Shown piece by piece: positions 2,376 through 22,930 of a stretch of DNA of 24,069 bases (position 1 is the first letter of the stretch; each line of letters starts with the position of its first letter). The notes beneath the pieces are model-generated. The model saw nothing but the letters and a program-made list of their open reading frames with translations, was not told where the DNA came from and did no database searches. This DNA is from a virus. The position numbers were made by a program, and so were the translations under genes. Where the stretch lies: positions 1 through 24,069 of IMG/VR virus record IMGVR_UViG_3300028025_000664; one strand, given 5' to 3'.

Positions 2376-3674
2376 ATGGTAAAAATTATTGTAGCAAAAG
2401 AAAAGCATGACTGTTCTCATCTGTCTGGGCAGTTTATTGATGAGAGACACTACGACCTTCTTATCGAAGAAGACACCGATGTGTATATGCCATGCAAGTA
2501 TGGTGAAGAACCATACACAGAGGACAAGATTGTTTTGAAGTTTCGTAAGAATTACTTTACAAAAGAACAACAGGAAATGGCATACGTTGGTCTCCGTGAA
2601 GCAGCAGTTGAAACCCAGAATCGTGGACTTGCAGCTGGACCACGTGGTGACAAACTAGGTAATCGTGAATGGGTTACTGAGTATGAGTATGATGTGCTTG
2701 ACTACTTTGTTAAGCCGACAGAGAATCTGTTTGGTGAAGATCCAATCGATCTTATCAAAGAACGCCACAAAGGTAAAGCACCATCGCCATCCAATCGTAA
2801 TAATGTTTGGGGTATTCAGGCAGTTAAGAAAGACAATTTTGTTTTTGCTGATTGGGTTGAGGCTACTCGTAAACTATCCAATGATGAGATGAAGGCAGAA
2901 GCCAATCGTGTAATCACAAAGTATGTTTGCGCAACTACCTATGCCAATGGCGTGTTCTCTGGTATTGCTGGTTGGTTCGATCGTTACCCACGTATCCCTT
3001 ATGGTCGTGCAACTTCATACACTGCTCGTCATCCTGATAAGTTTGCCAAGTCTTTCCCATTCCTTCAGCAATTGGCTAAAGGTTTTAAAGACCTACTTCC
3101 TCAGCGTTATGCAGCACAGATGGAAGCTGCAAACAAGATCGACAAAGGTTTCTTGGTTCCTGAAACCCCATTCACTACTGTTACAGTGAACAAAACATTC
3201 CGCACTGCTGCTCACTACGATGCTGGCGATCTGAATGAAGGTTTGTCTAACCTCTTGACACTTTCCAATGATGGTAAGTATACTGGTGGTTATTTGATTG
3301 CACCTGAGTATCGTGTTGCAGTTAATCCACGTCCAGGTGATTTGCTACTAATTAACAATCACGAAGTTATGCATGGTAATACTCCGATTGTTTGTGAAGA
3401 AGGTTCAGAGCGTATCTCTCTTGTTGTTTACTTCCGTGAGAAGATGCTTGAACTTGGTTCCAAGCAATACGAAGATACTCGTTATGACTTTGTTGAGTCA
3501 CGCAGACTGAACAAAGAACATCCTGAGTGGCGTCATCTATGGAATGGCGTATCGCAGGGTATGTGGCTTTCTGAAGAGTGGTATGAGTATTGCGAAAGCA
3601 AACTGGGTCGTGAGCAAACAGAAAAGTATCACCCAGAATCAATTAAAGCATCATCGCTTGAAAGTTTCTTTTAA
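2376..3674 (+). CDS. TET/JBP-family 2-oxoglutarate/Fe(II) dioxygenase
   Basis: Predicted DNA base dioxygenase that hydroxylates the methyl group of 5-methylcytosine (TET) or thymine (JBP) using Fe(II), O2 and 2-oxoglutarate. The C-terminal half holds the double-stranded beta-helix core. The HxD iron ligands are H280 and D282 in TAAHYDAGDLNEG, the distal ligand is H333 in NHEVMHGNTP, and the 2-oxoglutarate arginine is probably R346 in SERISL. The strand GGYLIAPEYRVAVNPRPGDLLL is typical of the family. The N-terminal about 200 residues, including GPRGDKLGNREWVTEYEY, have no assignable domain. The AGGAG ribosome site at 2365-2369 fixes the start. It is the first gene of an overlapping cluster with a kinase and an amidoligase, which favours DNA hypermodification over protein hydroxylation. 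Substrate (T or 5mC) cannot be decided from sequence. Confidence 0.85.
   Translation: MVKIIVAKEKHDCSHLSGQFIDERHYDLLIEEDTDVYMPCKYGEEPYTEDKIVLKFRKNYFTKEQQEMAYVGLREAAVETQNRGLAAGPRGDKLGNREWVTEYEYDVLDYFVKPTENLFGEDPIDLIKERHKGKAPSPSNRNNVWGIQAVKKDNFVFADWVEATRKLSNDEMKAEANRVITKYVCATTYANGVFSGIAGWFDRYPRIPYGRATSYTARHPDKFAKSFPFLQQLAKGFKDLLPQRYAAQMEAANKIDKGFLVPETPFTTVTVNKTFRTAAHYDAGDLNEGLSNLLTLSNDGKYTGGYLIAPEYRVAVNPRPGDLLLINNHEVMHGNTPIVCEEGSERISLVVYFREKMLELGSKQYEDTRYDFVESRRLNKEHPEWRHLWNGVSQGMWLSEEWYEYCESKLGREQTEKYHPESIKASSLESFF
3255..3284 (+). promoter_or_regulatory. Possible sigma70 promoter inside the dioxygenase gene
   Basis: TTGACA (3255-3260), an 18-base spacer, and TATACT (3279-3284), 6/6 and 5/6 matches. 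It lies about 390 bases before the amidotransferase start, farther than the other internal promoters, so it may be a chance match. Confidence 0.3.
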
Positions 3675-4360
3675 TGTGTTCAGTTATCGGTGCGATAATT
3701 AAAAAACCCGACCATGAAGACTTTCAAAAACTTGAGAAAGTATTTCATGAGTCTCGTATTCGTGGTCTTCATGCCACTGGTATTTCTTACGTAAAAGAAT
3801 ACACAATCCATACTATAAAACTTCCAGTGTCAGCGGATATGTTTCCGTTTTCTTGGAATGACTACGTGAATGAGGATGGCAATCTCTACTTGGTGGGGCA
3901 TTGCCGTTACTCAACATCAGACCTAGAATACAATCAACCCATTAATAATCAAACAACTTCTGTTGTTCATAATGGTGTTATCACACAGGAACTGCCAGAA
4001 AACTGGGAAAAGTTATATGGTTATAAGTGCGAGACTAAGAATGATACTGAACTGATTCTTCATACAATTGATGATGATAAGTCACCTTTGAAAGTTTGGA
4101 AAGATTCATCTCTTGCTGTTTGTGAACTTTGGTTTTGCAAGAAACTTAAATTCTATCGCAATGGGAAACGACCACTTTACTTGACTTCTTTAGACAATGG
4201 ATGTATAATTACTTCTACTAGGGATGTTATTGTTCGTGCTGGTATTACAGACCCAACAGTTGATGTTCCAATGAATACATACATTACCTTTGACGAATAC
4301 CTGACTATGACAACAGAAAAGGCTGACGTTGCAGGAGTTGATTATCAAATCGGAGTTTGA
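3674..4360 (+). CDS. Stand-alone class II glutamine amidotransferase (Ntn hydrolase)
   Basis: Glutaminase-type domain that releases ammonia from glutamine with an N-terminal cysteine nucleophile. C2 directly follows the initiator Met (MCSVIGAI), so Met removal would expose it. The other class II hallmarks are present at the expected spacing: GHCRYST at 75-81, HNG at 99-101 (oxyanion Asn/Gly) and KNDTE at 122-126, matching the order seen in GlmS and PurF. At 228 residues it is only the glutaminase domain, with no sugar-isomerase or phosphoribosyl domain, so it must pass ammonia to a partner. The obvious partner is the amidoligase that starts on the very next base. Its start overlaps the dioxygenase stop by one base and no strong ribosome site is visible, suggesting translational coupling. 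Family is certain; the final acceptor is unknown. Confidence 0.88.
   Translation: MCSVIGAIIKKPDHEDFQKLEKVFHESRIRGLHATGISYVKEYTIHTIKLPVSADMFPFSWNDYVNEDGNLYLVGHCRYSTSDLEYNQPINNQTTSVVHNGVITQELPENWEKLYGYKCETKNDTELILHTIDDDKSPLKVWKDSSLAVCELWFCKKLKFYRNGKRPLYLTSLDNGCIITSTRDVIVRAGITDPTVDVPMNTYITFDEYLTMTTEKADVAGVDYQIGV
4181..4209 (+). promoter_or_regulatory. sigma70 promoter inside the amidotransferase gene
   Basis: TTGACT (4181-4186), a 17-base spacer, and TATAAT (4204-4209): 11/12 to consensus at optimal spacing. It lies 157 bases (from -10 start) upstream of the amidoligase start, in the same relative place as the promoters ahead of 2376 and of thyX. It could boost the distal part of the modification cluster. 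Confidence 0.6.
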
Positions 4361-5332
4361 ATGAAATATAATACTGATGAGTTTAGCTACGGAGTTGAAC
4401 TAGAGTATGGTGATAGTTATCGCTTTTGCGAACTGCCTGATGGTGCTCAGTGGAATGACAAAGACAATACCTGTGTAAGCACTACAGGTATTGCCAACGA
4501 TCCAAATGGCAAGGTGTATGCTTATGGTGGTGAGATCAATACTCGCCCAACCATGACCATTGCTGAGCAGATTGAACACATTGCCAAGATCAATGCTGCC
4601 CTATGTCCTGCTCCTGTGGTAAACTACCGTAGCAACTTACATATTCACATTCGTGTTCCAAACCTTCATAACAATCTCGAAGATTGTAAGAAGCTACTAC
4701 GCTATGTAGAACGCTACCAGCAACAGGCATTTGATATCGTTGAAACTATCCCCACACCAAACAAGAATGTGTTACCACCAGAACAGTACGAGTGGGCACT
4801 GAAACGTATGAAGCGTCGTAAGAAGTCGCATCAGAATAAGTTACCACCTGCTCGAGTTGAGGCTATGTTGGCTTCTGAAACAGTGCATGACTTCTATGTT
4901 AATCATGCGCACAAAAATGCTGAGGGTGAGCCAGCATGGTTCCAATGCCCACGTGCAGGTATCAATCTGCGTCAGATGTGGGAAGAAACAAATACAATCG
5001 AGTTTCGCCACTTTCCAGGAACGCTGTATATGCCTGAGATGGAATCCTGTATTCGTTGGTGTAGAGACTTTCTCGATGCAGCATTAAACAGAGATGATGT
5101 GTCTCCACGTGAGTTCCATGCTGAAAGCGAATGGCAGTTTCCTGACTTTGAACCATACGAGTTTGAAACTGAACAGATCTATCAGTGGACTAACTTCGAT
5201 ACCAATACAAAGAAAGACATTGAAAAGCGTATTGCTGCACTCAGAAAAGAAATAGACATTGATGCTATCGGTAAGATTACGTCTCTTGATGTATTCCCTA
5301 TCATGCGTCGTTTACAATCAGAGGGTTTATGA
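4361..5332 (+). CDS. COOH-NH2 amidoligase (glutamine-synthetase-like fold)
   Basis: Predicted ATP-dependent ligase joining a carboxylate to an amine. Signatures of the amidoligase superfamily appear in order: GVELEY at 11-16 (metal-binding Glu pair), GGEINTRP at 56-63, NLHIHIRV at 92-99 (the paired His of the GLHVH-type motif), INLRQM at 201-206 and NTIEFRHF at 211-218. The last about 100 residues are helical and charged. A CGGAG ribosome site precedes the ATG, which immediately follows the amidotransferase stop. Amidoligases beside glutamine amidotransferases are an association already noted in comparative genomics of this superfamily, with the latter supplying ammonia or trimming glutamyl groups. 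Here the surrounding dioxygenase and kinase suggest the substrate is an amino acid attached to DNA; that is inference. Confidence 0.8.
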   Translation: MKYNTDEFSYGVELEYGDSYRFCELPDGAQWNDKDNTCVSTTGIANDPNGKVYAYGGEINTRPTMTIAEQIEHIAKINAALCPAPVVNYRSNLHIHIRVPNLHNNLEDCKKLLRYVERYQQQAFDIVETIPTPNKNVLPPEQYEWALKRMKRRKKSHQNKLPPARVEAMLASETVHDFYVNHAHKNAEGEPAWFQCPRAGINLRQMWEETNTIEFRHFPGTLYMPEMESCIRWCRDFLDAALNRDDVSPREFHAESEWQFPDFEPYEFETEQIYQWTNFDTNTKKDIEKRIAALRKEIDIDAIGKITSLDVFPIMRRLQSEGL

Positions 5333-5751
5333 AAGTATTGTTCCTTTGTCATGGCAATGTAAACCGCAGTGCTGCTGCGGAGATTATCCTCAGGCAGGAT
5401 TATCCACACATCGAAGTAAAGTCAGCTGGTCTCAAGACTACTGATGGTAGAATCACTGCCAAGAAGATGCGTGATGTTCTTAATGACCATGGTTACAAGA
5501 CAGAAGGTATTCGTTCTACCGCAGTCACTCAAGAGTTGGTTGACTGGGCGGATGAGATTTTCTACATGGACGATGCCAATAAAAAGAGATTTGTCGATAA
5601 ATTCGGGGACTTACCCAAGGCACAGAAGCTGTCCAATCTAATCCCTGGAGTCAAAAAGATTCCTGATCCAGCATTCGCTGACGGAACTAATATGCACCAT
5701 GAAGTTGTTAACCTAATCAAGACTGCTCTGAATACATGGACTACCGCTTAA
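5329..5751 (+). CDS. Low-molecular-weight phosphotyrosine phosphatase-like protein
   Basis: A 140-residue protein of the LMW-PTP / arsenate reductase fold. The phosphate-binding loop is near the N-terminus: C7-x5-R13-S14 in FLCHGNVNRSAAAE. The general-acid loop DP (D113-P114) is in KKIPDPAF near the C-terminus, as in the family. The usual second cysteine of CxGNxCRS is Asn12 here, so a redox or arsenate-reductase role is less likely than phosphate-ester hydrolysis. It overlaps the amidoligase stop by ATGA (4 bases) and the next gene by 16 bases, so it is locked into the cluster. A function on phosphorylated base intermediates is attractive, but host-protein dephosphorylation is equally possible from sequence. 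Confidence 0.85.
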   Translation: MKVLFLCHGNVNRSAAAEIILRQDYPHIEVKSAGLKTTDGRITAKKMRDVLNDHGYKTEGIRSTAVTQELVDWADEIFYMDDANKKRFVDKFGDLPKAQKLSNLIPGVKKIPDPAFADGTNMHHEVVNLIKTALNTWTTA

Positions 5752-6755
5752 GAGAGAATCGTAGAGAAGCATTCATACGCTGGTACGCATGGTCATTGAA
5801 GTATGATGATTGCGATCCAGCTGTATGGGCTACGAATTATCTAAACAAACGCTACGAACACAACGATGAACAACGTCTGTGGCTTTGCTGGCTATATGGC
5901 AACACTTACTATCTTCCAACCTCATGGGTTCTGTTAAACGAATTCCCTGACTTTGAACTAGCAACTGTTGGTCGTATGGAACAGTGGAACACTGCCAACT
6001 ATAAACGTCTTCGTTATCAGACAGATACCAAGTGGAACAAGGGACATCTACCAGAGATGTTTGCTTCCTATCAGAAGTTTATCGGTGACAGAACACAACG
6101 TGAAGTATTGGAGAGTTATTATGGTGACAACGAGAGCAGAAATTTTGACAACCTGTGGGAACGGATTAAAGGCGATCTTCATAAGTTCGGTCGTTACTCC
6201 ACTTGGTTTTATCTTCAGCATCTTAAGCATACCGCTGGTATTCGGATCAATCCTACTTCTCTTATGCTGGATGACTATTCTGGTTCTCGCTCTCATCGTA
6301 ATGGGTTGCTTTATGCCCTCGGCAAAGATGACCTTTGTGATACAAAACTTACTCAGTCGGAATACGCTAGTCTTGAAAGCGAGTCAACCTCAATCCTTAT
6401 GGAAACGAAATCCCGTTTCCCAGATCTAGCAGATCAGGTAGACTTCTTTACGATGGAAACCTGCCTGTGTTCCTTTAAGAAGATCTTCAGAGAACACCAT
6501 GGTCGTTACCTTGGATACTATCTGGATCGTCAGGCAGAGGAGATTATGCAATGCGAAAAGGATGGCTGGTTTGGTATTGAGTGGCAAGTCCTTTGGGATG
6601 CTCGCAACGAAACCATAGACTTACGTTTGGATAGCAAACGTGGAATAGTCAAGGAGAACTTTACTTCCTTCGTTAGAACAGGTAAAATGTCTAATCTGGA
6701 ATGGATGTTTGATGATGAAGAATATGTTAATACAGGACTGGAGATGTTTTTATGA
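5736..6755 (+). CDS. Amino acid:DNA transferase / hmdU-kinase-helical family protein (former aGPT-PPlase group)
   Basis: A 339-residue, mostly helical soluble protein. I match it by pattern to phage proteins first described as alpha-glutamyl/putrescinyl-thymine pyrophosphorylases and later split into amino acid:DNA transferases and the helical domain of 5-hydroxymethyl-dU DNA kinase. Recognisable stretches are WLCWLYGNTYYLPTSWVLLN and NEFPDFEL, the block NYKRLRYQTDTKWNKGHLPEM, and SLMLDDYSGSRSHRNGL. Many invariant-looking Trp, Arg and Asp residues suggest an active enzyme. Its start lies 16 bases inside the phosphatase gene and its stop overlaps the P-loop kinase start by ATGA. If it is a transferase it would displace (pyro)phosphate from an activated base with an amino acid amine; if a helical partner, it would complete the small kinase that follows. 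I cannot separate these by eye. Confidence 0.6.
   Translation: MDYRLRENRREAFIRWYAWSLKYDDCDPAVWATNYLNKRYEHNDEQRLWLCWLYGNTYYLPTSWVLLNEFPDFELATVGRMEQWNTANYKRLRYQTDTKWNKGHLPEMFASYQKFIGDRTQREVLESYYGDNESRNFDNLWERIKGDLHKFGRYSTWFYLQHLKHTAGIRINPTSLMLDDYSGSRSHRNGLLYALGKDDLCDTKLTQSEYASLESESTSILMETKSRFPDLADQVDFFTMETCLCSFKKIFREHHGRYLGYYLDRQAEEIMQCEKDGWFGIEWQVLWDARNETIDLRLDSKRGIVKENFTSFVRTGKMSNLEWMFDDEEYVNTGLEMFL
6660..6688 (+). promoter_or_regulatory. Weak possible promoter ahead of the kinase gene
   Basis: TTTACT (6660-6665), a 17-base spacer, and TAAAAT (6683-6688), 4/6 and 5/6 matches, 64 bases before the kinase start. Similar matches occur by chance in AT-rich coding DNA, so it is listed with low confidence. 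Confidence 0.2.
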
Positions 6756-7294
6756 GAAAATTGATGGCAGTTGGTGGTCAACCAGGAACTGGTAAAACGA
6801 CACTGTTTCGTAAGTTTATGGAAAGTTACCAGTGGGAAACTGTGGAACCAAAGAAGATGCTTCCTGCGCTTTACTGCAAGGAACTGGATCTTTATGTTCT
6901 GGGCAAGTACGAGGATGGTGAAACCTTTGCAGGAACTGATCGTTTAAGTATGGCTGTTCAGCCTGTGGCGCAGAGTTTCGTGGCTGAAACCACTTCCAAT
7001 ATCCTATTCGAAGGCGACCGAATCTTTAACCAGTCTTTCTTGGAATTCGCCATGGGTTTGGAAGCCACCGACCTTCAGGTGGTTTATCTCAAGGTTCCAA
7101 ATGACCTGCTAAAGCAACGCTATGCGGATCGAGGTTCCGACCAATCCGAGACGTTTCTAAAAGGTCGTACGACTAAATATAACAACATCCTCTCAAACTT
7201 TGAGTTGATGCCCTATATTACTGAGTTTGTAAACACTAACTTAGAGGAACAAGGGAAAGTTCTTGCATTTATGGAGAAGCATCTGGTGAGTTGA
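6752..7294 (+). CDS. P-loop kinase, candidate 5-hydroxymethyl-base DNA kinase
   Basis: A 180-residue P-loop NTPase of the small-kinase type. Walker A is at residues 9-16 (GQPGTGKT) right at the N-terminus. A strand ending NILFEGDR (Walker-B-like Asp) is followed by LQVVYLKVP and an arginine-rich lid region (KQRYADRGSDQ). In known thymidine-hypermodifying phages a P-loop kinase phosphorylates 5-hydroxymethyl-dU in DNA before amino acid or polyamine transfer. Its coupling by ATGA overlap to the transferase/helical-domain gene and its place downstream of a TET/JBP enzyme fit that role. A generic nucleotide or polynucleotide kinase is the alternative. The stop codon overlaps the -35 box of the next promoter. 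Confidence 0.7.
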   Translation: MRKLMAVGGQPGTGKTTLFRKFMESYQWETVEPKKMLPALYCKELDLYVLGKYEDGETFAGTDRLSMAVQPVAQSFVAETTSNILFEGDRIFNQSFLEFAMGLEATDLQVVYLKVPNDLLKQRYADRGSDQSETFLKGRTTKYNNILSNFELMPYITEFVNTNLEEQGKVLAFMEKHLVS

Positions 7295-7319
7295 CATGCA
7301 AGGATTTTCTAGGTATAAT
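7291..7319 (+). promoter_or_regulatory. Perfect-consensus sigma70 promoter with a near-leaderless start
   Basis: TTGACA (7291-7296, overlapping the kinase stop codon), a 17-base spacer, and TATAAT (7314-7319), 12/12 to consensus. Only seven bases separate the -10 box from the ATG at 7327, so the expected transcription start falls at or next to the start codon. Confidence 0.75.
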
Positions 7320-7326
7320 TATCATT

Positions 7327-8034
7327 ATGAACTTCCTAGAAAACGCAACTTTCAACTGGATGGAATTGCTCAACTTTTATGAGCAACCATTCAGAGCTAA
7401 ACTCATTCCTGCCAAAGTCTGGAAGGATCTAGACCGCTATCGCAACGATTCAGCTGGTCTTACGAACTACGTCCGAAAGTGGCGAACCAAGATCAACTGG
7501 ATCACCATTCTTCCCAAGAAGAAGTCCTACGAAACCAACGTCTATGTTGGTGGTGAATACGATCCGAACGATCGACAGTGTATCCTTATCATCTATGCCA
7601 GAGACTTCGATAGCTTCCCCTTTACAGACTACAAGTGGGCGAGGTTTAAGTATCGTCTGATGCAAACTCTGATGCATGAGATAATCCACTTTATGCAGTA
7701 CGACCGAAGAGACGATATCTGGAGCAATTACGTTGTTCCTTACAAGAAGGTAGGCATAGCAAAGAAGGATGCCGAACGTAGATACCTCTCTGAGTTTGAC
7801 GAAATACAGGCTTATGCTCACTGCGTTTATCTAGACTACAAGATGAACAAACCCAATGTTCCAATCGAAACCCTCTTGGCTCGTTGCAAGAAATCCAAAG
7901 ACAAAGACTCCCCCACCCTCCACTACGTTCTTAAGACATTTAACTATGACTTCAGGAACAATGGTGCGCCACGCAAAATCATTGACCACATCGGTAAATG
8001 GCACAGAAAGTATTCTAGACTTAATCCTGCCTAA
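7327..8034 (+). CDS. Putative zinc metallopeptidase (HExxH protein)
   Basis: A 235-residue protein with a zincin-type motif, H117-E-I-I-H121 in LMHEIIHFMQYDRR. Downstream glutamates (E156, E159) in SEFDEIQAYAH could supply the third zinc ligand, as in gluzincin-like families. No signal peptide or membrane segment is seen, so it would act in the cytoplasm or virion. The start at 7327 is chosen over a TTG at 7291, because that TTG is the first half of a perfect promoter. The mRNA from that promoter would be leaderless or nearly so. The substrate is unknown. It sits between the modification cluster and the late genes, and its stop overlaps a late promoter. A structural, non-catalytic role is possible. 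Confidence 0.65.
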   Translation: MNFLENATFNWMELLNFYEQPFRAKLIPAKVWKDLDRYRNDSAGLTNYVRKWRTKINWITILPKKKSYETNVYVGGEYDPNDRQCILIIYARDFDSFPFTDYKWARFKYRLMQTLMHEIIHFMQYDRRDDIWSNYVVPYKKVGIAKKDAERRYLSEFDEIQAYAHCVYLDYKMNKPNVPIETLLARCKKSKDKDSPTLHYVLKTFNYDFRNNGAPRKIIDHIGKWHRKYSRLNPA

Positions 8035-8061
8035 ATATGTGATAATTACATATTGATGGGT
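8031..8061 (+). promoter_or_regulatory. T4-like late promoter with downstream GATGGG element
   Basis: GCCTAAATA (late box CTAAATA 8031-8037, overlapping the upstream stop codon) is followed after 17 bases by GATGGGT (8055-8061), four bases before the ATG at 8066. The same arrangement recurs at 10439 and, in part, at 18359. It resembles the single-box late promoters of T4 (TATAAATA) read with the gp55-type sigma factor; the late-promoter assignment is by analogy. Confidence 0.6.
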
Positions 8062-8065
8062 TACT

Positions 8066-9145
8066 ATGTCTGGACAAGTTAAAAACAAACAATTGATACC
8101 GACTGCTTTTGGAATAGCAGACGGGAATGAAGTCACACTCACTTCTTTAAACACCAAAGTAAAGGGTAAGTTAAAGAACATGGGGTTGTCTCCAGCTGTT
8201 GTATCAGCATGCGAGTATCTTTACGATCAGGCACTGAAAGGGAACGACACCTTTCCAACGAATCCTGGAACCCTTAGTAAAGAAGATTACAACATCATTC
8301 TAAAAGACTTCGGTGAAATAACTGGAGCAGCATGGTTGTTACAAACGCATAATAAGAAATATAAAGCAGTTAAGTTTCCTGTGGGTAATGAGAAGCTGAT
8401 TGACTACATGCTAGTAACAAAGCAGGGTCTAGTAGAAAAGTTTTCAGCGAAGGCTGGGCAGGGTGGCAAACCTTCCATTACTTCTTTAATGCCAGTCATC
8501 GAGGAATTGATTACTACATCACAGGCAACCCTTGACATCAAACTAGCAAAACCATCATGGGTCATCTACCATCTTTCAACTGAAGAAAAGAATGGTTTAT
8601 ATTTCGGACCACTTAAAGCAGCGCAGTATTTAAATAGTCCTGGATGGGCAGCATTAACAAAATTGCTGAAGCACAAAGATCTCAAAACAGGTTATACAAC
8701 TGGTCTTCCTACGCAGGCACAGATGGAAACTGCTGTAGTGAATATGGGTACATACGAAAACCTTCGTAAGTACGCCAAAGAATTCTACGATGCCACTGGT
8801 TATTCCAGTACAATTAACGTAGAAGTTTCTAAACGTATTATGGGTAAAGGTTATGATCGTGTTCGTTATGGTTTATTACATTACCCAATTACAGCTGAAA
8901 TGGTTAAATGGTTAAATACCTCATCTAATCATGCTCAAACCCTTTTAAATATGACTGCCAATACTTTAAATATTCAGCAGGTTTATATGGATTTAAAAGG
9001 CACTTCAATTGTTTATAGCGTAAAAGCATTCTCAGACGCTGAGTTTAAATTCGGTTCTCCGAGTAGCGCACCATATCCTACTAATAATAGAATGGGTTTT
9101 ACAATGAATAAATCACCTCAACCTATTAATAGAATTAAAGACTAA
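8066..9145 (+). CDS. Unknown late protein, 359 residues
   Basis: I do not recognise the family. The protein is soluble, with no signal peptide or transmembrane segment. The N-terminal 110 residues are mixed helical. A central part reads KLIDYMLVTKQGLVEKFSAKAGQ, a D-(x)n-hydrophobic-SxK pattern faintly like a PD-(D/E)XK nuclease core but too weak to call. The C-terminal part contains YDRVRYGLLHYPITAEMVKW and an ending rich in Ser, Pro and Asn (SPSSAPYPTNN). From about 8860 to the end the third positions become markedly AT-rich compared with the first half. It has its own late-type promoter and is followed by a 63-base gap with an inverted repeat and a promoter. A virion or late-acting role is inferred from the promoter only. 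Confidence 0.7.
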   Translation: MSGQVKNKQLIPTAFGIADGNEVTLTSLNTKVKGKLKNMGLSPAVVSACEYLYDQALKGNDTFPTNPGTLSKEDYNIILKDFGEITGAAWLLQTHNKKYKAVKFPVGNEKLIDYMLVTKQGLVEKFSAKAGQGGKPSITSLMPVIEELITTSQATLDIKLAKPSWVIYHLSTEEKNGLYFGPLKAAQYLNSPGWAALTKLLKHKDLKTGYTTGLPTQAQMETAVVNMGTYENLRKYAKEFYDATGYSSTINVEVSKRIMGKGYDRVRYGLLHYPITAEMVKWLNTSSNHAQTLLNMTANTLNIQQVYMDLKGTSIVYSVKAFSDAEFKFGSPSSAPYPTNNRMGFTMNKSPQPINRIKD

Positions 9146-9208: not shown

Positions 9209-10432
9209 ATGCTGAATCTCAAGTCCTACATAAAAGAAGAAAAAAACACTCACATGGAGCACCTCGAAGATCTGATCTTCAACGAGGGTGTTGCTGGTAC
9301 AAAACAAGCAATCAAATTCCTACGTGATCTGCGTGACATGCTTGCAAGCAGCGCAAAGTCAAAAGTTACGTCAACTGTAAAATGGGATGGTGCTCCAGCG
9401 ATCTTTGCTGGTATTGATCCACGTGATGGCAAATTCTTTATTGCCAAGAAGGGTGTGTTCAACAAAGAGCCAAAAATATATAAAACAGTGGCTGAGATTG
9501 ACGCTGATACAGATGGCGATCTGGCAGCAAAGTTTAAAGTAGCATTGCAAGAGTTTAGTAAGTTGGGAATTAAAAAAGGGGTCTATCAGGGTGATCTAAT
9601 GTTTACTCAATCAGACCTGAAGTTAGAAACCATAGAAGGATCCAAGTATATTACCTTCCATCCCAACACTATTGTTTATGCCGTGCCAGCTGAAAGCGAT
9701 CTAGCCAAGCAGATCAAGAAAGCAAAGATTGGTGTCGTGTGGCATACCACTTACACTGGTGCTACCTTTGAATCAATGACTGCTTCGTTTGGTAAAGGCA
9801 TCGTTGAGAAATTCAAAAATGTTTCTAGCATCTGGATGGATGATGCAAACTACAAAGACTATTCAGGTACTGCTACCTTTACAAAAGCAGAAACCACTAA
9901 ACTGGATAGCATTATCAAGAAAGCCGATACGCTGGTGGCTTCGATTCAAACCCCTGTGTTAAATGGTATTAGTCAGAATCCTGACCTAATGTTGTTGGTT
10001 AAAACCTTTGGCAACAGTAAGATACGTGCTGGCGAAAAGATTACCGATACCAGCAAGTACGTGACTGAACTGTTTAATTACATCCATGAGAAACTAGAAC
10101 CAAAGCAGAAAACCGAAAAGGGTAAAGCTGCTGGTGAAGAAAAGCGTAAAAAGATCATGGCATTCTTTGCCAACCATGATAAAAAAGAGATCGTTAAGAT
10201 CTTTGATCTGGCAAATACGTTGGTTGACGCCAAGCATATGATTGTCGATAAGATGAATCAGGCTGGTCATATCTCTACCTTCCTTAAGACTACCAATGGC
10301 TTTAAAGTTACTGGAGTTGAGGGTTTTGTGGCTATTGACCACATGACAGGTGGAGCAGTTAAGATTATTAACCGTATGGAGTTTAGCCAGTCTAACTTCT
10401 CCCCAGAAATTATCAAGGGTTGGCAAAGATAA
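9209..10432 (+). CDS. KxDG nucleotidyltransferase (polynucleotide-ligase-like), possible capsid cargo
   Basis: A 407-residue protein of a family common in marine T4-like phages and usually left unannotated. I see an ordered set of ligase-superfamily motifs: motif I K58-W-D-G61 in TVKWDGAPAIFAG (the lysine that becomes nucleotidylated), the FFIAKKG strand at 77-82, a motif-III-like VYQGDLMF at 125-132, motif IV V370-E-G-F-V and motif V A383-V-K-I-I. A long mostly helical insertion (about 200-360) separates motifs III and IV, which is unusual. The N-terminus MLNLKSYIKEEKN resembles the capsid-targeting peptide of T4 internal proteins with an IxE cleavage site. This suggests the enzyme is packaged in the head. 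Ligase activity on DNA or RNA is inference; a degenerate nucleotidyltransferase is possible. Confidence 0.6.
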   Translation: MLNLKSYIKEEKNTHMEHLEDLIFNEGVAGTKQAIKFLRDLRDMLASSAKSKVTSTVKWDGAPAIFAGIDPRDGKFFIAKKGVFNKEPKIYKTVAEIDADTDGDLAAKFKVALQEFSKLGIKKGVYQGDLMFTQSDLKLETIEGSKYITFHPNTIVYAVPAESDLAKQIKKAKIGVVWHTTYTGATFESMTASFGKGIVEKFKNVSSIWMDDANYKDYSGTATFTKAETTKLDSIIKKADTLVASIQTPVLNGISQNPDLMLLVKTFGNSKIRAGEKITDTSKYVTELFNYIHEKLEPKQKTEKGKAAGEEKRKKIMAFFANHDKKEIVKIFDLANTLVDAKHMIVDKMNQAGHISTFLKTTNGFKVTGVEGFVAIDHMTGGAVKIINRMEFSQSNFSPEIIKGWQR

Positions 10433-10438
10433 AGATGC

Positions 10439-10470
10439 CTAAATAATATTGTATATTTTTATAGATGGGT
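10439..10470 (+). promoter_or_regulatory. T4-like late promoter with downstream GATGGG element
   Basis: GCCTAAATA (box CTAAATA 10439-10445), then 18 bases, then GATGGGT (10464-10470), four bases before the ATG at 10475. Box, downstream element and distance to the start codon match the 8031-8061 unit almost exactly. The gap between the two genes is only 42 bases and this unit fills it. Confidence 0.65.
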
Positions 10471-10474
10471 AATA

Positions 10475-13400
10475 ATGAAGAATTATAGACAATTAGTCAA
10501 GGAACTTCCTTCCAAGAAAGTAGTATTTGCGTTTGGTCGCTTTCAGCCACCAACGACAGGTCACGAACTTTTGGTGAATGCCGTCAAGAAATTGGCTGGC
10601 ACTACAGCTGATCATGTCATCTATGCCTCAAAGACTGAGGATAAGAAATCAAATCCCCTTCCCGTTGCTCGTAAGGTATACTTCCTTAAGCGGATGTTCC
10701 CGAAAACAAACTTCGTTGCCGCAAGTGCAGAAGTTAGAACTCCGATTGAAGCAGCAAAAGAACTCAATAAAAAATACAAAAACATTGTCTTGGTTGCAGG
10801 TAGCGACCGAGTTGCATCATTCCAGAAACTATTGAATGATTACAATGGTAAAGAATATCACTTTGATACAATCGAAGTAGTTTCCGCAGGTGAACGTGAT
10901 CCAGATAGCGATACAGCTTCTGGTATGAGTGGCACCAAGATGCGTGAAGCAGCAGTGGCTGGTGACTTTAATAAGTTTAAAAAAGGTTTGCCACATACCC
11001 TAACCGAACTAGATGGTCGTCGTTTAATGAACGACATCCGCAAAGGTTTGGGACACCCAGTTATCAAAGAATCGTTCGTTGTAAGTACCAACGTCCTTCG
11101 CGAAAGATACATTAACGAAGAGATCTTTCTTATCGGTGACAAGGTTCAGGATGCCAATGGCGTCTATGAGATTATGGATCGTGGCACTAACTACGTTACT
11201 GTTGCTGATTCAAAAGGCGATCTAAGCAAAAAGTGGTTAGATCAGATTACCGAAAGCGAAATCACCGAAGACATTCCTGGTGGTTATGCTCCAAAGGAAG
11301 TTTCCTTCAAGGGTTTCACTACAAAGAATTTACATCACTCCGCTGATGCCACTGATGCGTTTATGCAAACCATCCAACGTCAGGGTGACAAAGATCCAGT
11401 TGCAGTGCTCAACGCACTCAAGGCAACTGATACATACATGCAAATTAACGACCTTCACTTGGCACAGGGTGGTATAGCACCAGACCAAGCTGAAATTAAT
11501 ACATGGATTGCAGCCCATGACAAAGCCAAAGAATCTCTGGATCGTGTTGGTGAATTCCTGCACCATGAAGATTACTGGCACATGCATCAGCATGAGTTAG
11601 AAGGTCTGCTAACAAATTACAAAGAAACAGGTAAAGACGATATGAACGAAGAACTATCCGATAAAACCATCAAAGGTTCTGATAAGATTAAAGTTGCACG
11701 AATCATTGCCAATACCTTTGGTGTGGAAAATGCAGAAGCAACAAGCGATCCTACGCAGTTGGTTAACTCTGGTTTGCGTAAGGTTCGTGGTAAAGCATTC
11801 AATGCTGACTCCCTAAAGATCATTGGCAAGATGCTTGAGTTGGCCAGAGAAGTTGGTATCCAATATGATAACAATCTCGTTCCAACCAAGTTAAAGGAAG
11901 GCACTATTCAGCCAAATGGAACAGACAAGATTGATGTGTTAAGTAATGCACCGACTGATCGCACAAAGACTGTTTACTACAAAGACTTCAAGAAGATGAT
12001 TCAAAAGGAAGAAGTTGTAGACAAGAAAGACAACGAAAGTGATCATGACTACGATGCAAGGATGACTGCTCATCCACATTCTCATGTGGGTCATGCTATG
12101 TCATCACCAGCAGATAGCACTAACCTTCGTCGTCAAAAGGTTAGATATCGTTTGGGTGAAGAAGTAGAACTAGAAGAGTCTGCAGCAGATTTAGATAAAC
12201 ATATCTCTACCTTTGGAAAAGGTGTTAAGTCCTCAGCTGCAAAACAAAGCACATACAAGCGTGATAATAAACCAATCCACAATATGAAGCATGTGGAAAC
12301 TGATTCGGATCATCATGCAGTTTTTAAACATCTACAAAAGATGGGTTACAAAAAGACTTCTGGTTATGATTCAAAACCAAATGAGTTTACTATGCACCAC
12401 AATCGCGATGAGATGACATCAAAGAGCGATCCAGTTCACCACTCGTCTGGCGTTTCTGCCCATGTGGAAAAAGAACATGGTGGCAAGACTAAGGTTCACT
12501 TCACTCATCGTGGTATGAAAGAAGAAGTTCAGCTGGACGAATCATACGAGAAAGCTGAAGCGCATCGTACCAAAGCCATGGATGCTCAGAAGAAAGGTGA
12601 CAACGAGAAGTTTCATCACCACATGAGCAACCACTACGAAGCCCTATCACAGTGGCACAGTAGCAAAGGTCGCCACAATATGGCAGACCTGACATCTCAG
12701 AAAGCAGACAAGCACCATGAGGCATCTACCAATGGTGGCAAGTTAAAGACAGAAGAAGTAACTGAAGAACCAGCGATGAAGCATCGTGTGGCTGTTACTG
12801 TATCTGATCCAAACCATACTGTAGTTTCCAAACGTAAAGAACAGGTTCAAAAGTTTGCCAAGGTAACTGCTGCCAGTGAAGCTGATGCACTTAAGAAAGC
12901 CTCTGCGCACTTCAAGAAAGCTGGATTCAAGATCCATGGTGCCGAGCATCACTCAATGGTCAAGGAAGATCTAAACGAACTGTCAAACGACACATTGGCT
13001 TCTTATAAAAAGAAAGCTGGCGCTGAAGCAAGTGCTGCTGACAAAGCTGGCGATACAAAGAAAGCAGACAAGCGTTTCTCTGGTATCATCAAAGCTACTA
13101 AGAAAGAATTTGTCAACGACTTAAGAAAAGAAGATGTTGATACATCTGAATACACCATTAAGAAGTTTGTTGGTGGTGATGGTAAGACTCATGAGAGAAA
13201 GATTCGCCCAAAGCGTGTTACCTTTGCCGCAAGTAAAACAGGTGGCGAGCCAGCACAGGGCAAACAAAGAGACGAAAGTTATTACACTAAAGTAGTTGAT
13301 GCCCTAAACGAAGCCATGACAGCTATCGATAAAGGCGAGTACGACTACGAAGGTCAGATGGCAAGAACGCAGTTGCAAACAACATTGCGTAATTGTAAAG

Positions 13401-14110
13401 ATTTGATCGACATGATCAAAGACGATGATAACATGCCAGAGTGGGTTCAGTCTAAGATTACCTTAGCACAAGATTACATCACAACTGTTAGAGATTATCT
13501 CCAGTCAAAAGAAGAACTTGGCGAAGAAACAAAAGCTGAGTTAGAAAAAGATACAGACTACGAAGATTACAAAGATCCTTTCTTTGAAGAAAGCGATGAT
13601 TCTGAAGAAATGTCAGATGATGACATGGACGCTATGATCAACAGCACACAAGACCATGAGTTTTTAGATGCGTATGATGAAGACGAATTGCATATCGTTG
13701 ATCTAGATACTGGCGAGCCAGTTGAGGATGATGAGAAAGATATTAAAGAAGAAACACTCATGGAAGTGTTGTCTCGTTTCGAACGTATGCGTGCAAAGAT
13801 GCGTTTTTCCAAGACAAAATCTAAGCGTGAACGTCGTATGGCTATCGCATTGAAGAGTCGTTCTAATACTCAAACTCTAAATAAACGTGCACGTCGTATG
13901 GCTGTTCTTCTAATGAAGAAACGTATTGCCAGAAAACCTTTGAGCCAGTTATCAATCGGCGAAAAGGAAAGACTAGAAACCATTATTCAAAGACGCAAAG
14001 CAGTGATTGGTCGTATCGCCATGAAGCTGACACCACGCATGCGCAAGATCGAACAGAATCGTTTGTCCCACACCAAGGGTGGAACAGGCAGCACTAACAA
14101 TGCATTTTAA
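10475..14110 (+). CDS. Giant multidomain late protein with N-terminal HxGH-type nucleotidyltransferase
   Basis: A 1211-residue fusion. Residues 14-170 form a cytidylyltransferase/NMN-adenylyltransferase-like domain with GRFQPPTTGH at 21-30 and the second signature SGTKMR at 152-157. Residues about 219-260 (IGDKVQDANGVYEIMDRGTNY) look like a small KOW/SH3-type barrel. The rest is a chain of helical, His- and Lys-rich segments separated by short acidic linkers ending in (L/I)xE (VELEES, VQLDES, DLNELS), then a strongly acidic stretch and a basic C-terminal roughly 116 residues (RFERMRAKMRFSKTKSKRER). The N-terminus MKNYRQLVKE resembles the targeting peptide of T4 internal proteins. The linkers look like prohead-protease sites, so the product may be packaged and cut into pieces. 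Equivalent proteins occur in marine T4-like phages; function is unproven. Confidence 0.7.
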   Translation: MKNYRQLVKELPSKKVVFAFGRFQPPTTGHELLVNAVKKLAGTTADHVIYASKTEDKKSNPLPVARKVYFLKRMFPKTNFVAASAEVRTPIEAAKELNKKYKNIVLVAGSDRVASFQKLLNDYNGKEYHFDTIEVVSAGERDPDSDTASGMSGTKMREAAVAGDFNKFKKGLPHTLTELDGRRLMNDIRKGLGHPVIKESFVVSTNVLRERYINEEIFLIGDKVQDANGVYEIMDRGTNYVTVADSKGDLSKKWLDQITESEITEDIPGGYAPKEVSFKGFTTKNLHHSADATDAFMQTIQRQGDKDPVAVLNALKATDTYMQINDLHLAQGGIAPDQAEINTWIAAHDKAKESLDRVGEFLHHEDYWHMHQHELEGLLTNYKETGKDDMNEELSDKTIKGSDKIKVARIIANTFGVENAEATSDPTQLVNSGLRKVRGKAFNADSLKIIGKMLELAREVGIQYDNNLVPTKLKEGTIQPNGTDKIDVLSNAPTDRTKTVYYKDFKKMIQKEEVVDKKDNESDHDYDARMTAHPHSHVGHAMSSPADSTNLRRQKVRYRLGEEVELEESAADLDKHISTFGKGVKSSAAKQSTYKRDNKPIHNMKHVETDSDHHAVFKHLQKMGYKKTSGYDSKPNEFTMHHNRDEMTSKSDPVHHSSGVSAHVEKEHGGKTKVHFTHRGMKEEVQLDESYEKAEAHRTKAMDAQKKGDNEKFHHHMSNHYEALSQWHSSKGRHNMADLTSQKADKHHEASTNGGKLKTEEVTEEPAMKHRVAVTVSDPNHTVVSKRKEQVQKFAKVTAASEADALKKASAHFKKAGFKIHGAEHHSMVKEDLNELSNDTLASYKKKAGAEASAADKAGDTKKADKRFSGIIKATKKEFVNDLRKEDVDTSEYTIKKFVGGDGKTHERKIRPKRVTFAASKTGGEPAQGKQRDESYYTKVVDALNEAMTAIDKGEYDYEGQMARTQLQTTLRNCKDLIDMIKDDDNMPEWVQSKITLAQDYITTVRDYLQSKEELGEETKAELEKDTDYEDYKDPFFEESDDSEEMSDDDMDAMINSTQDHEFLDAYDEDELHIVDLDTGEPVEDDEKDIKEETLMEVLSRFERMRAKMRFSKTKSKRERRMAIALKSRSNTQTLNKRARRMAVLLMKKRIARKPLSQLSIGEKERLETIIQRRKAVIGRIAMKLTPRMRKIEQNRLSHTKGGTGSTNNAF

Positions 14111-21218: not shown

Positions 21219-22247
21219 ATGTTATTTGTTGATGTTAAATTTGCATCGATGCTTGGTCCTCACCTTCGGAACTTTAAACAAAAGAAGGACTACCTGTGGA
21301 ACTACAGTTGCCCAGTCTGCGGTGATAGTTCCAAACACAAACTTAAAGCACGTGGCTTTATCTATAAGGTAAAGTCTGATCTGTTCGTCAAATGTCACAA
21401 CTGCGGATATGGCACGAACATTGGAAACTTTATCAAGTTTGTAAACTCAAACCTTTATGATGAGTACGTATTGGAACGCTACAAGAGTGGCGCAACACGT
21501 TACAATGACCACAAAGATATCAATGAAGTTGATACTCGCTTTGCCGATACCAAACCAGTATTTTTACTAGAAGATGATTCTCTAAAGGATGTAACACGTT
21601 TGGATAAACTAAAGGAAACACATCCTGCAGTTAAGTATGCAATCAAGCGACAAATCCCTCGTGACATGTGGCACTTACTTTACTTTTGTACTAAGTTTAA
21701 AAAGTGGACAAACAGTATCATCTACAAATTCAGTAAGGAAGATGAAGACCATCCTCGTTTAATCTTTCCATTCTTCAATACAGCAGGTAAGATGTATGCG
21801 TTTTCGGGTAGGGCATTTGGTGCTGAAGAACCCAAGTATTATACAGTAAAACTTGATGAAAATGCTGAAAAAGTATATGGTTTAGACAGAATTGACTACG
21901 GAAAACATGTGTATGTAGTTGAGGGTCAGGTTGACTCACTATTCCTTCCTAATTGCATTGCAGTTGCTGGCGCATCGTTTGATCTTCCAACCATACAAAA
22001 GATTAAAACTAATTGCACGATTGTTATGGATAACGAGCCACGCAACAAAGATATCGTGAAACAACTTGCTAAGTATATTGAAGAAGGGTATAATGTGTGT
22101 ATGTTCCCTGATACTGTTCAGGAAAAAGACATTAACGAAATGGTCCTTGCTGGTCGTACGATTCCGCAAGTTTTAGAAATCATAAATACAAACTCCTTCC
22201 AAGGAATGGAAGCACAGTTGAAGTTTATTAATTGGAGAAAATGTTGA
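21219..22247 (+). CDS. 61: DNA primase, T4 gp61-like
   Basis: Primase subunit that lays RNA primers for lagging-strand synthesis with the gp41 helicase at 978-2366. The N-terminal zinc ribbon has C31-P-V-C34-G-D and C59-H-N-C62-G, the DnaG/gp61-type arrangement. The TOPRIM core follows: VYVVEGQVDSLFLPNCIAVAG carries the catalytic Glu, and TIVMDNEPRNKD the acidic metal-binding motif. The 342-residue length matches gp61. The start at 21219 is preceded by its own promoter and terminator-bounded leader; the ribosome site is weak (CTGGA). The end overlaps the thyX start by a few bases. Confidence is high from zinc and TOPRIM motifs plus the presence of gp41. Confidence 0.9.
   Translation: MLFVDVKFASMLGPHLRNFKQKKDYLWNYSCPVCGDSSKHKLKARGFIYKVKSDLFVKCHNCGYGTNIGNFIKFVNSNLYDEYVLERYKSGATRYNDHKDINEVDTRFADTKPVFLLEDDSLKDVTRLDKLKETHPAVKYAIKRQIPRDMWHLLYFCTKFKKWTNSIIYKFSKEDEDHPRLIFPFFNTAGKMYAFSGRAFGAEEPKYYTVKLDENAEKVYGLDRIDYGKHVYVVEGQVDSLFLPNCIAVAGASFDLPTIQKIKTNCTIVMDNEPRNKDIVKQLAKYIEEGYNVCMFPDTVQEKDINEMVLAGRTIPQVLEIINTNSFQGMEAQLKFINWRKC
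22066..22094 (+). promoter_or_regulatory. Internal promoter ahead of thyX
   Basis: TTGCTA (22066-22071, 4/6), a 17-base spacer, and TATAAT (22089-22094, 6/6), inside the primase gene about 150 bases upstream of the thyX start. Position and spacing resemble the internal promoters at 2215 and 4181. Confidence 0.45.
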
Positions 22248-22930
22248 AAGTAAGATTAGTAAGTTATAGCAAAGCCTCCAGTGAATTAGAAAATGATGGG
22301 TTGACGGACGTTCAAGAGCTAATTGGTTATTGCGCCCGAGTCAGCAACCCAAGCAATCAACTCAACACAGATACAACAGAAAAGTTAATTCGATACTTGA
22401 TCAAGCACCAACACTGGTCTCCACTAGAGATGGTAAGTGCATGCTTAGAAATCGAAACAACACGTGACATCGCAAGACAGATGTTGCGCCATCGCTCTTT
22501 TTCGTTTCAAGAATTCAGTCAACGATACGCAGATCCAACTAAAGATCTATCATTTGTACTTCGAGATGCTCGACTCCAAGATACAAAGAACAGACAAAAT
22601 AGTGTAGAACTTGATATTATCAAAAATGACAAACATCGGTTTCTCGCTTATCAATGGGAACAAATGCAACAACGTGTATTGGCTGAAGCAAAGAACGTAT
22701 ATGAGTGGGCGATTGAACAAGGTATCGCAAAAGAACAAGCAAGAGCAGTGTTACCAGAAGGACTAACAGTGTCTAGGCTTTATATGAATGGTACATTAAG
22801 AAGCTGGGTGCATTTCATTGAATTACGTAGTGCCAATGGAACCCAAAAAGAACATCAACAAATAGCAATTGAATGCGCCCGAGTCATAGCGGAAATATTT
22901 CCCATGGCCAGCGAATTCATATCAGAATAA
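22241..22930 (+). CDS. thyX: Flavin-dependent thymidylate synthase ThyX
   Basis: Makes dTMP from dUMP using methylene-tetrahydrofolate, FAD and NADPH. The diagnostic RHRx7S motif is at residues 83-93 within RHRSFSFQEFSQRY. The C-terminal LPEGLTVSRLYMNGTLRSWV region and the HFIELR helix complete the active site. At 229 residues it is normal for the family. The start is taken as the ATG at 22241, four codons before KVRLVSYS; GGAG is only three bases away, so the TTG at 22244 (six bases from GGAG) is a serious alternative. It overlaps the end of the primase gene and is followed by nrdA, giving a nucleotide-supply pair common in marine T4-like phages. It also supplies the thymine that a JBP-like enzyme could oxidise. 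Confidence 0.93.
   Translation: MLKVRLVSYSKASSELENDGLTDVQELIGYCARVSNPSNQLNTDTTEKLIRYLIKHQHWSPLEMVSACLEIETTRDIARQMLRHRSFSFQEFSQRYADPTKDLSFVLRDARLQDTKNRQNSVELDIIKNDKHRFLAYQWEQMQQRVLAEAKNVYEWAIEQGIAKEQARAVLPEGLTVSRLYMNGTLRSWVHFIELRSANGTQKEHQQIAIECARVIAEIFPMASEFISE

Follow-up and report, generated by a model that had tools for sequence, protein, structure and literature searches.

The window analyzed here, a stretch of 24,069 nucleotides comprising positions 1 to 24,069 of the IMG/VR virus record IMGVR_UViG_3300028025_000664, carries an operon headed by a gene for a TET/JBP-family 2-oxoglutarate/Fe(II) dioxygenase (positions 2376 to 3674, plus strand, 432 aa from an ATG start; Pfam PF12851), a proposed thymine-in-DNA hydroxylase and hereafter the TET. 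Five genes follow on the same strand, with overlapping or abutting starts. The first (3674 to 4360) encodes a class II glutamine amidotransferase (GATase) domain that stands alone and has Cys2 as its nucleophile (Pfam GATase_6, 1.5e-9); its start overlaps the stop of the TET gene in the sequence TAATG, and Cys2 is present in 138 of 143 relatives of at least 200 aa. Behind it lie genes for an amidoligase-like protein with a proposed role in acylation of a base-bound amine (4361 to 5332; Amidoligase_2, 9.1e-5, 22.9 bits at a cut-off of 22), a low-molecular-weight protein-tyrosine-phosphatase-like protein (5329 to 5751; LMWPc, 4.8e-17), an amino acid:DNA transferase (ADDT; 5736 to 6755; PF18724, 2.3e-22, 80.3 bits at a cut-off of 26.2) and a P-loop kinase (6752 to 7294; PF18751, 1.8e-10, above the cut-off), the last being a proposed 5-hydroxymethyluracil-in-DNA kinase. 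Relatives of the ADDT occur in 376 of 50,697 phage records, in 328 of these across at least 80% of its length. We take alpha-glutamyl/putrescinyl-thymine pyrophosphorylase to be an earlier name for this type of enzyme. The kinase has a Walker A motif, GQPGTGKT, at residue 9, and this motif is present in all 96 relatives of at least 170 aa. PHROG 800, which the kinase matches, is labelled "terminase small subunit", a misleading name.

The slot is closed by an HExxH protein (7291 to 8034, plus strand), found in 52 of 53 related loci with sufficient downstream sequence and with the motif in 70 of 70 copies. It also follows a glycosyltransferase gene in L172-L174. Because it is kept whether an ADDT or a glycosyltransferase occupies the slot, it is probably not part of the modification pathway. 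The window phage can make ordinary dTMP, because a ThyX-type thymidylate synthase is encoded at 22232 to 22930 (plus strand; PF02511, 3.6e-44); ThyX is present in 8 of 11 related records. Positions 9209 to 14110 encode a DUF6267 protein (3.7e-106) and a protein of 1211 aa whose N-terminus is cytidylyltransferase-like, both seemingly unrelated to the operon.

We consider the 2376-3674 product to be a predicted TET/JBP-fold enzyme with a complete 2-oxoglutarate/Fe(II) site because its Pfam match, its invariant residues and its model fold all point the same way. Tet_JBP covers residues 208 to 355 (E 9.9e-25, 87.1 bits at a cut-off of 34.9), and PHROG 24024, of unknown function, covers residues 1 to 425 (E 1.4e-161). 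A preliminary description made from the window alone had placed the active site at H280xD282, H333 and R346; all of these lie at the positions given and are invariant in 14 of 14 sequences of a first alignment and in 32 of 32 of a wider one, while the HxD motif is present in all 200 TET ORFs of at least 400 aa. Since the TET has at least 555 relatives in IMG/VR, a chance ORF can be excluded. An AlphaFold2 model built on the 32-sequence alignment has a mean pLDDT of 87.0 and a pTM of 0.73. In a Foldseek search of the PDB with this model, ranks 1 to 26 were taken by TET2, CcTet, CMD1 and NgTET1, and VIA-align superposed 258 residues on TET2 at 3.9 Å with a Z score of 19.6. The model fold, a TET-type double-stranded beta-helix, falls inside the TET/JBP group, so that the fold assignment of the preliminary description is borne out and the outcome that it had named as speaking against it, a fold outside that group, is absent. 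No JBP catalytic structure is among the listed PDB matches.

The fold comparison also bears on the substrate class. The substrate of the TET might be RNA or a free nucleotide, with the ADDT/kinase operon obtaining 5-hydroxymethyluracil by another, unrecognised route, and the AlkB/FTO-type nucleic-acid demethylases are indeed the next fold group, with Z scores of 12 to 14. However, the TET-group entries come first (Z 17.5 to 19.6, as against 13.7 for ALKBH3, the next match), most of these structures were solved with DNA, and a tailoring candidate stands beside the TET in every distinct locus with enough downstream sequence to be scored (74 of 74; see below). We therefore regard action on RNA or nucleotides as very unlikely. 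A small-molecule or protein hydroxylase was rejected: the only Pfam match besides Tet_JBP is a weak one to TauD (21.5 bits, below the cut-off of 27), and the fold search prefers TETs. Neither the J-DNA-binding domain of JBP1 nor the SNF2 domain of JBP2 is matched in the 432 aa by Pfam. GenBank records KU682439, KF301602, MG450654 and MN698246 name this protein "SNF2 DNA repair protein", a misleading name perhaps carried over from JBP2 records.

The N-terminal half had been described as uncharacterised, which holds in that residues 1 to 200 contain no Pfam domain. However, this half is partly TET core: the structural match to TET2 begins at model residue 1 and spans residues 1 to 376, so that at least 82 of the 258 aligned residues must lie within residues 1 to 200. 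Conservation across the 32 sequences is uneven, with a mean majority fraction of 0.77 in residues 77 to 100 and of 0.50 in residues 101 to 190, the least conserved stretch. An NRGxAAG motif at about residues 82 to 88 has R83, G84 and G88 invariant, and residues 84 to 89 are the sole stretch of the model with a pLDDT under 50. An invariant loop at residues 82 to 89 that is modelled as unstructured is what would be expected of a loop that orders upon DNA binding.

The operon is conserved among relatives. Three overlapping sets were collected from IMG/VR: 308 TET relatives in a first scan (80 kept), at least 555 in an alignment-based scan and at least 583 in a third; scans with the TETs of phages Cr30 and S-CBWM1 as single proteins returned only these phages themselves. 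The first two scans supplied 130 relatives, of which 53 extend 4.5 kb or more beyond the TET; the amidotransferase, the ADDT and the kinase are all present in 49 of these and all absent in the other 4. In a wider set, 203 TET loci reduced to 175 distinct ones (identical TET plus 300 flanking bases counted once), of which 74 have at least 4.5 kb downstream; L028, L029 and L212 stand outside this count, their TET ORF having been lost to the greedy ORF picker. An ADDT is present in 60 of the 74, a glycosyltransferase but no ADDT in 12, and a 335-aa protein, p335, in 2, leaving no locus without a tailoring candidate beside the TET. The 60 ADDT loci divide into 57 with amidotransferase, ADDT and kinase (one of them also with a glycosyltransferase), 2 with ADDT and kinase, and the isolate Cr30, in which the ADDT and a TAGT-like protein (PF20691, 19.7 bits, below the cut-off) are adjacent and the kinase lies further off; Cr30 may carry two tailoring routes. 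The amidotransferase co-occurs with the ADDT (57/60 loci with an ADDT, 0/14 without). The amidoligase occurs in 25 of the 60 ADDT loci, the phosphatase-like protein in 11, and a member of a GNAT cluster, an amidoligase or both in 58 (41 GNAT, 25 amidoligase).

Linkage of this kind could reflect shared descent only, with a TET that does something unrelated and an ADDT/kinase cassette that simply travels with it. Most near relatives do share one genome background, dnaB lying upstream in all 96 loci with 1.5 kb before the TET, and because of this descent, and because closeness to the queries decided which loci were chosen, the locus counts measure conservation and are not independent trials. Three observations argue against co-travel as the whole explanation. 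First, amidotransferase, ADDT and kinase come and go together in the 53-locus set. Second, TET, ADDT and kinase also occur together in different genomic settings and in another gene order: dnaB was found upstream in 27 ADDT loci and not in 11, although the ORF picker can miss it; the order is ADDT-kinase-TET in L121-L123 and L125; and gp2-gp4 of mycobacteriophage Zemanar are a Tet_JBP protein (26.1 bits, below the 34.9 cut-off), an ADDT and a PF18751 kinase. Thus, the TET-ADDT linkage holds where the surroundings differ. Third, the genes that replace the cassette include TET-associated glycosyltransferases. Mere co-travel of the cassette is, in our judgment, highly improbable.

The replacing glycosyltransferases are either of the GT4 type or of the TAGT type (Pfam "TET-Associated Glycosyltransferase", which two cluster representatives match with 4.8e-19 and 2.5e-10), and in the cultured phages DLP6 and S-CBWM1 a TAGT gene lies near or next to the TET. 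We labeled 139 loci with a TET of at least 400 aa by their downstream genes, thinned them at 93% identity within each label to 83, and added the window, DLP6 and C48C1. On the resulting TET tree, built by a quick method without bootstrap and with a long-branch warning, the ADDT label changes 18 times, at least 10 of these changes being forced by starred branches; with merged labels (ADDT, glycosyltransferase, p335) there are 16 changes. These label changes indicate that the downstream chemistry was repeatedly exchanged behind one hydroxylase. We read the arrangement as a single predicted hydroxylase with interchangeable candidate consumers of its hydroxymethyl group.

In 10 of the 14 loci lacking the amidotransferase in a separate tally (L025, L027, L061, L078, L096, L130, L132, L134, L135 and L151), p335, which begins MSLHEFLGEE, replaces the amidotransferase/ADDT/kinase cassette. 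Eight aligned copies have 75 to 95% identity to the first. No Pfam, NCBIfam or PHROG family matches p335, and hhalign detects no relation to the glycosyltransferase clusters; its model has a pLDDT of 53, and profile searching brought up a single PDB match (E 0.054). The protein may be a new tailoring enzyme.

The preliminary description had named a hydroxymethylase elsewhere in the genome as evidence against its reading. The window is a 24-kb record of an incomplete genome, and related records stood in for the remainder of it: 28 larger IMG/VR records with this TET (18 + 10; completeness not stated), 9 of which are 145 to 197 kb long. Thymidylate-synthase-type enzymes (PF00303), which include the dUMP and dCMP hydroxymethylases, were found neither in any of the 28 records nor in the window or Zemanar. 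The same family was matched in the positive controls T4 (in two places, one in pieces), SPO1, Vi01 and P46FS4. Cr30, an isolate with this TET, the ADDT and the kinase, does have a PF00303 protein, but its best 60 PDB matches are all thymidylate synthases (top E 3.1e-88); it looks like an ordinary thymidylate synthase and was set aside as a candidate hydroxymethylase. In P12024L the PF00303 match (12.7 bits) is below the cut-off. A hydroxymethylase elsewhere in the genome was likewise set aside, none of the thymidylate-synthase type having been found in the 28 relative records. The Ackermannviridae phage P46FS4 presents the reciprocal pattern: it has an ADDT, a kinase of the family PF18747 (5-hmdU DNA kinase 2) rather than the PF18751 of the window kinase, and a PF00303 gene, and it is absent from the 13 records with a TET match. 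Thus, the ADDT is accompanied by a hydroxymethylase-type gene in P46FS4 and by a TET here.

Cytosine-5 methyltransferases bear on a different substrate. The TET might oxidize 5-methylcytosine to 5-hydroxymethylcytosine, from which the kinase and ADDT, or a glycosyltransferase, would build a hypermodified cytosine. The phage TETs that have been studied by experiment take 5-methylcytosine as their substrate (PMC12730594, PMC11404850) and work beside a C5-methyltransferase (PMC12730594), phage TET homologues were described in 2024 as typically associated with deoxycytidine (PMC11404850), and cytosine is also glycosylated by TAGT-type enzymes in T-even phages (PMC13390438). By contrast, a cytosine-5 methyltransferase (PF00145) is matched in none of the 28 IMG/VR records with this TET. 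The window lacks one too, in agreement with the preliminary description, as do DLP6, Cr30, C48C1, S-CBWM1, HTVC112P, P12024L and Zemanar, and no cytosine-5 methyltransferase motif turned up among the ORFs of the loci fetched; a methyltransferase may nevertheless be encoded by the host or be too divergent for both searches. A dCMP-modifying PF00303 enzyme is absent from the same 28 records, and the kinase-plus-transferase route has been described for thymine derived from 5hmdU (PMC6449724, PMC9599517).

The single PF00145 match, among the eight records of one search (the window, the six phages from DLP6 to P12024L and Melnitz-3), is in Melnitz-3 (L008). Its positions 4010 to 8090 hold, in a row, an HhaI-type methyltransferase, a distant TET, a 427-aa protein and a PF18751-like kinase (20.7 bits, below the cut-off), without an ADDT. 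This row is perhaps a cytosine version of the pathway. Because Melnitz-3 pairs both with a cytosine-5 methyltransferase, a TET and a kinase together are no proof of thymine, and Melnitz-3 is the strongest counter-case to the thymine reading. On balance we consider cytosine an unlikely substrate of the TET in the window.

We judge it likely that the phage uses the operon at 2376 to 7294 to hypermodify thymine within its own DNA, with the TET in place of a dUMP hydroxymethylase. The substrate and the product are deduced from genes, and thymine in particular from gene context. The preliminary description had called JBP-like thymine hydroxylation plausible, partly on the ground that thymine is abundant. 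The abundance is only mild (T 26.7%, A 32.1%, G 22.0%, C 19.2%); support for thymine hydroxylation is nonetheless stronger than it was because the TET heads an operon with an ADDT and a P-loop kinase, two neighbors absent from that description whose enzyme types turn 5-hydroxymethyluracil in DNA into hypermodified thymine. In the pathway that we propose, the TET would hydroxylate the methyl group of thymine in DNA to yield 5-hydroxymethyluracil, the job done at the nucleotide level by dUMP hydroxymethylase in phages such as ViI and M6. The kinase, to judge by its family, would then phosphorylate the hydroxymethyl group, and the ADDT, again by family, would swap the phosphate for an amine. In the fourth and weakest step, the amidotransferase might provide ammonia from glutamine and the amidoligase or a GNAT enzyme might acylate the amine; we place the amine ahead of these two enzyme types because both acylate amines. 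In sister phages a glycosyltransferase takes the place of the kinase/ADDT cassette and would attach a sugar to that hydroxymethyl group, much as in base J. Phage DNA carrying the product would be shielded from restriction and related defenses.

The proposed pathway resembles the thymidine hypermodification of ViI, M6 and phiW-14, in which 5hmdU incorporated at replication is phosphorylated by a 5hmdU DNA kinase and modified by an alkylamine transferase (PMC6449724); a second report describes a thymidylate-synthase homologue together with an alpha-glutamyl/putrescinyl-thymine pyrophosphorylase in M6-like phages and some pelagiphages (PMC9599517). Common to both are an ADDT, a P-loop kinase and a hydroxymethyl group that here is presumed to be in DNA, as well as acetyltransferases in the cassette and, in L062, L068, L069, L085 and L088, a radical SAM-type protein. 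Unlike those phages, the system described here has a TET/JBP dioxygenase where no thymidylate-synthase-family hydroxymethylase was found, an added glutamine amidotransferase, in part an amidoligase, and a kinase that Pfam places in another family. Enzymes of the TET, ADDT and kinase types also lie side by side in the actinobacteriophages Zemanar (gp2-gp4) and Tonitrus; for the latter, a 2025 annotation names a tet-like protein, aGPT-Pplase2 and a 5-hmU kinase as parts of a system that possibly hypermodifies thymidine (PMC11955845). Unlike the window, Zemanar gp2-gp4 include neither amidotransferase nor amidoligase and the proteins are only distantly related, and tblastn with the window TET gave no match in mycobacteriophages. 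The phage systems of Burke et al. 2021 reportedly likewise couple a TET to tailoring enzymes, among them the TAGT-type glycosyltransferases seen here in sister loci; they differ in having a C5-methyltransferase, which here is absent from the tested relative records, the distant Melnitz-3 excepted. With kinetoplastid JBP1 and JBP2 the window TET shares the fold, a proposed hydroxylation of thymine in DNA and, in sister loci, a glycosyltransferase partner; it differs in having no match to the J-DNA-binding or SNF2 domains and in that the hydroxyl would mostly be replaced via the kinase and ADDT.

In kinetoplastids, TET/JBP enzymes are known to oxidize thymine within DNA on the way to base J, and Iyer et al. 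in 2013 reportedly predicted phage pathways that start from hydroxymethylpyrimidines made by TET/JBP enzymes. The general idea is already in print as annotation; what is new is the operon, its amidotransferase and the repeated swapping of cassettes. A literature search, with key papers of the field outside its reach, returned neither an experimental study of a phage TET acting on thymine nor a mention of the amidotransferase operon. The broader proposition, that a widespread group of T4-like phages uses a TET/JBP thymine hydroxylase on the finished strand and has repeatedly exchanged phosphate-displacement and glycosylation chemistry behind it, seems to us evenly poised. Its phosphate-displacement branch (kinase, ADDT, glutamine amidotransferase and acylation) would probably yield a new base of the acylated aminomethyluracil type, and its glycosylation branch, in a bacterial virus, 5-hydroxymethyluracil that bears a sugar much as base J does. 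If thymine is indeed the substrate, its oxidation is widespread among phages sampled from the environment, and hypermodified thymine has a second route, in which the DNA is modified once replicated and the dTTP pool is not swapped. One hydroxylase combined with several kinds of tailoring genes would also be a natural part set for new DNA bases. The cultured members, among them Caulobacter phage Cr30, Stenotrophomonas phage DLP6 and S-CBWM1, make the thymine question directly testable. DLP6 DNA has been exposed to 18 restriction enzymes, and restriction-inhibitor controls are mentioned; the printed sentence omits the outcome (PMC5349666).

Two further enzymes occur at related loci. A second, small 2OG-Fe(II) oxygenase is encoded directly after the TET in 12 fetched loci (L064, 11365 to 11961; PF13759, 4e-18); the cluster of the L064 protein also has members in L071, L075, L088 and L175. 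The radical SAM enzyme of L085 (13725 to 15155, 476 aa; PF04055, 7e-13), the tested member of its cluster, is encoded between the ADDT and the kinase, a position that would suit a further rearrangement of the attached group.
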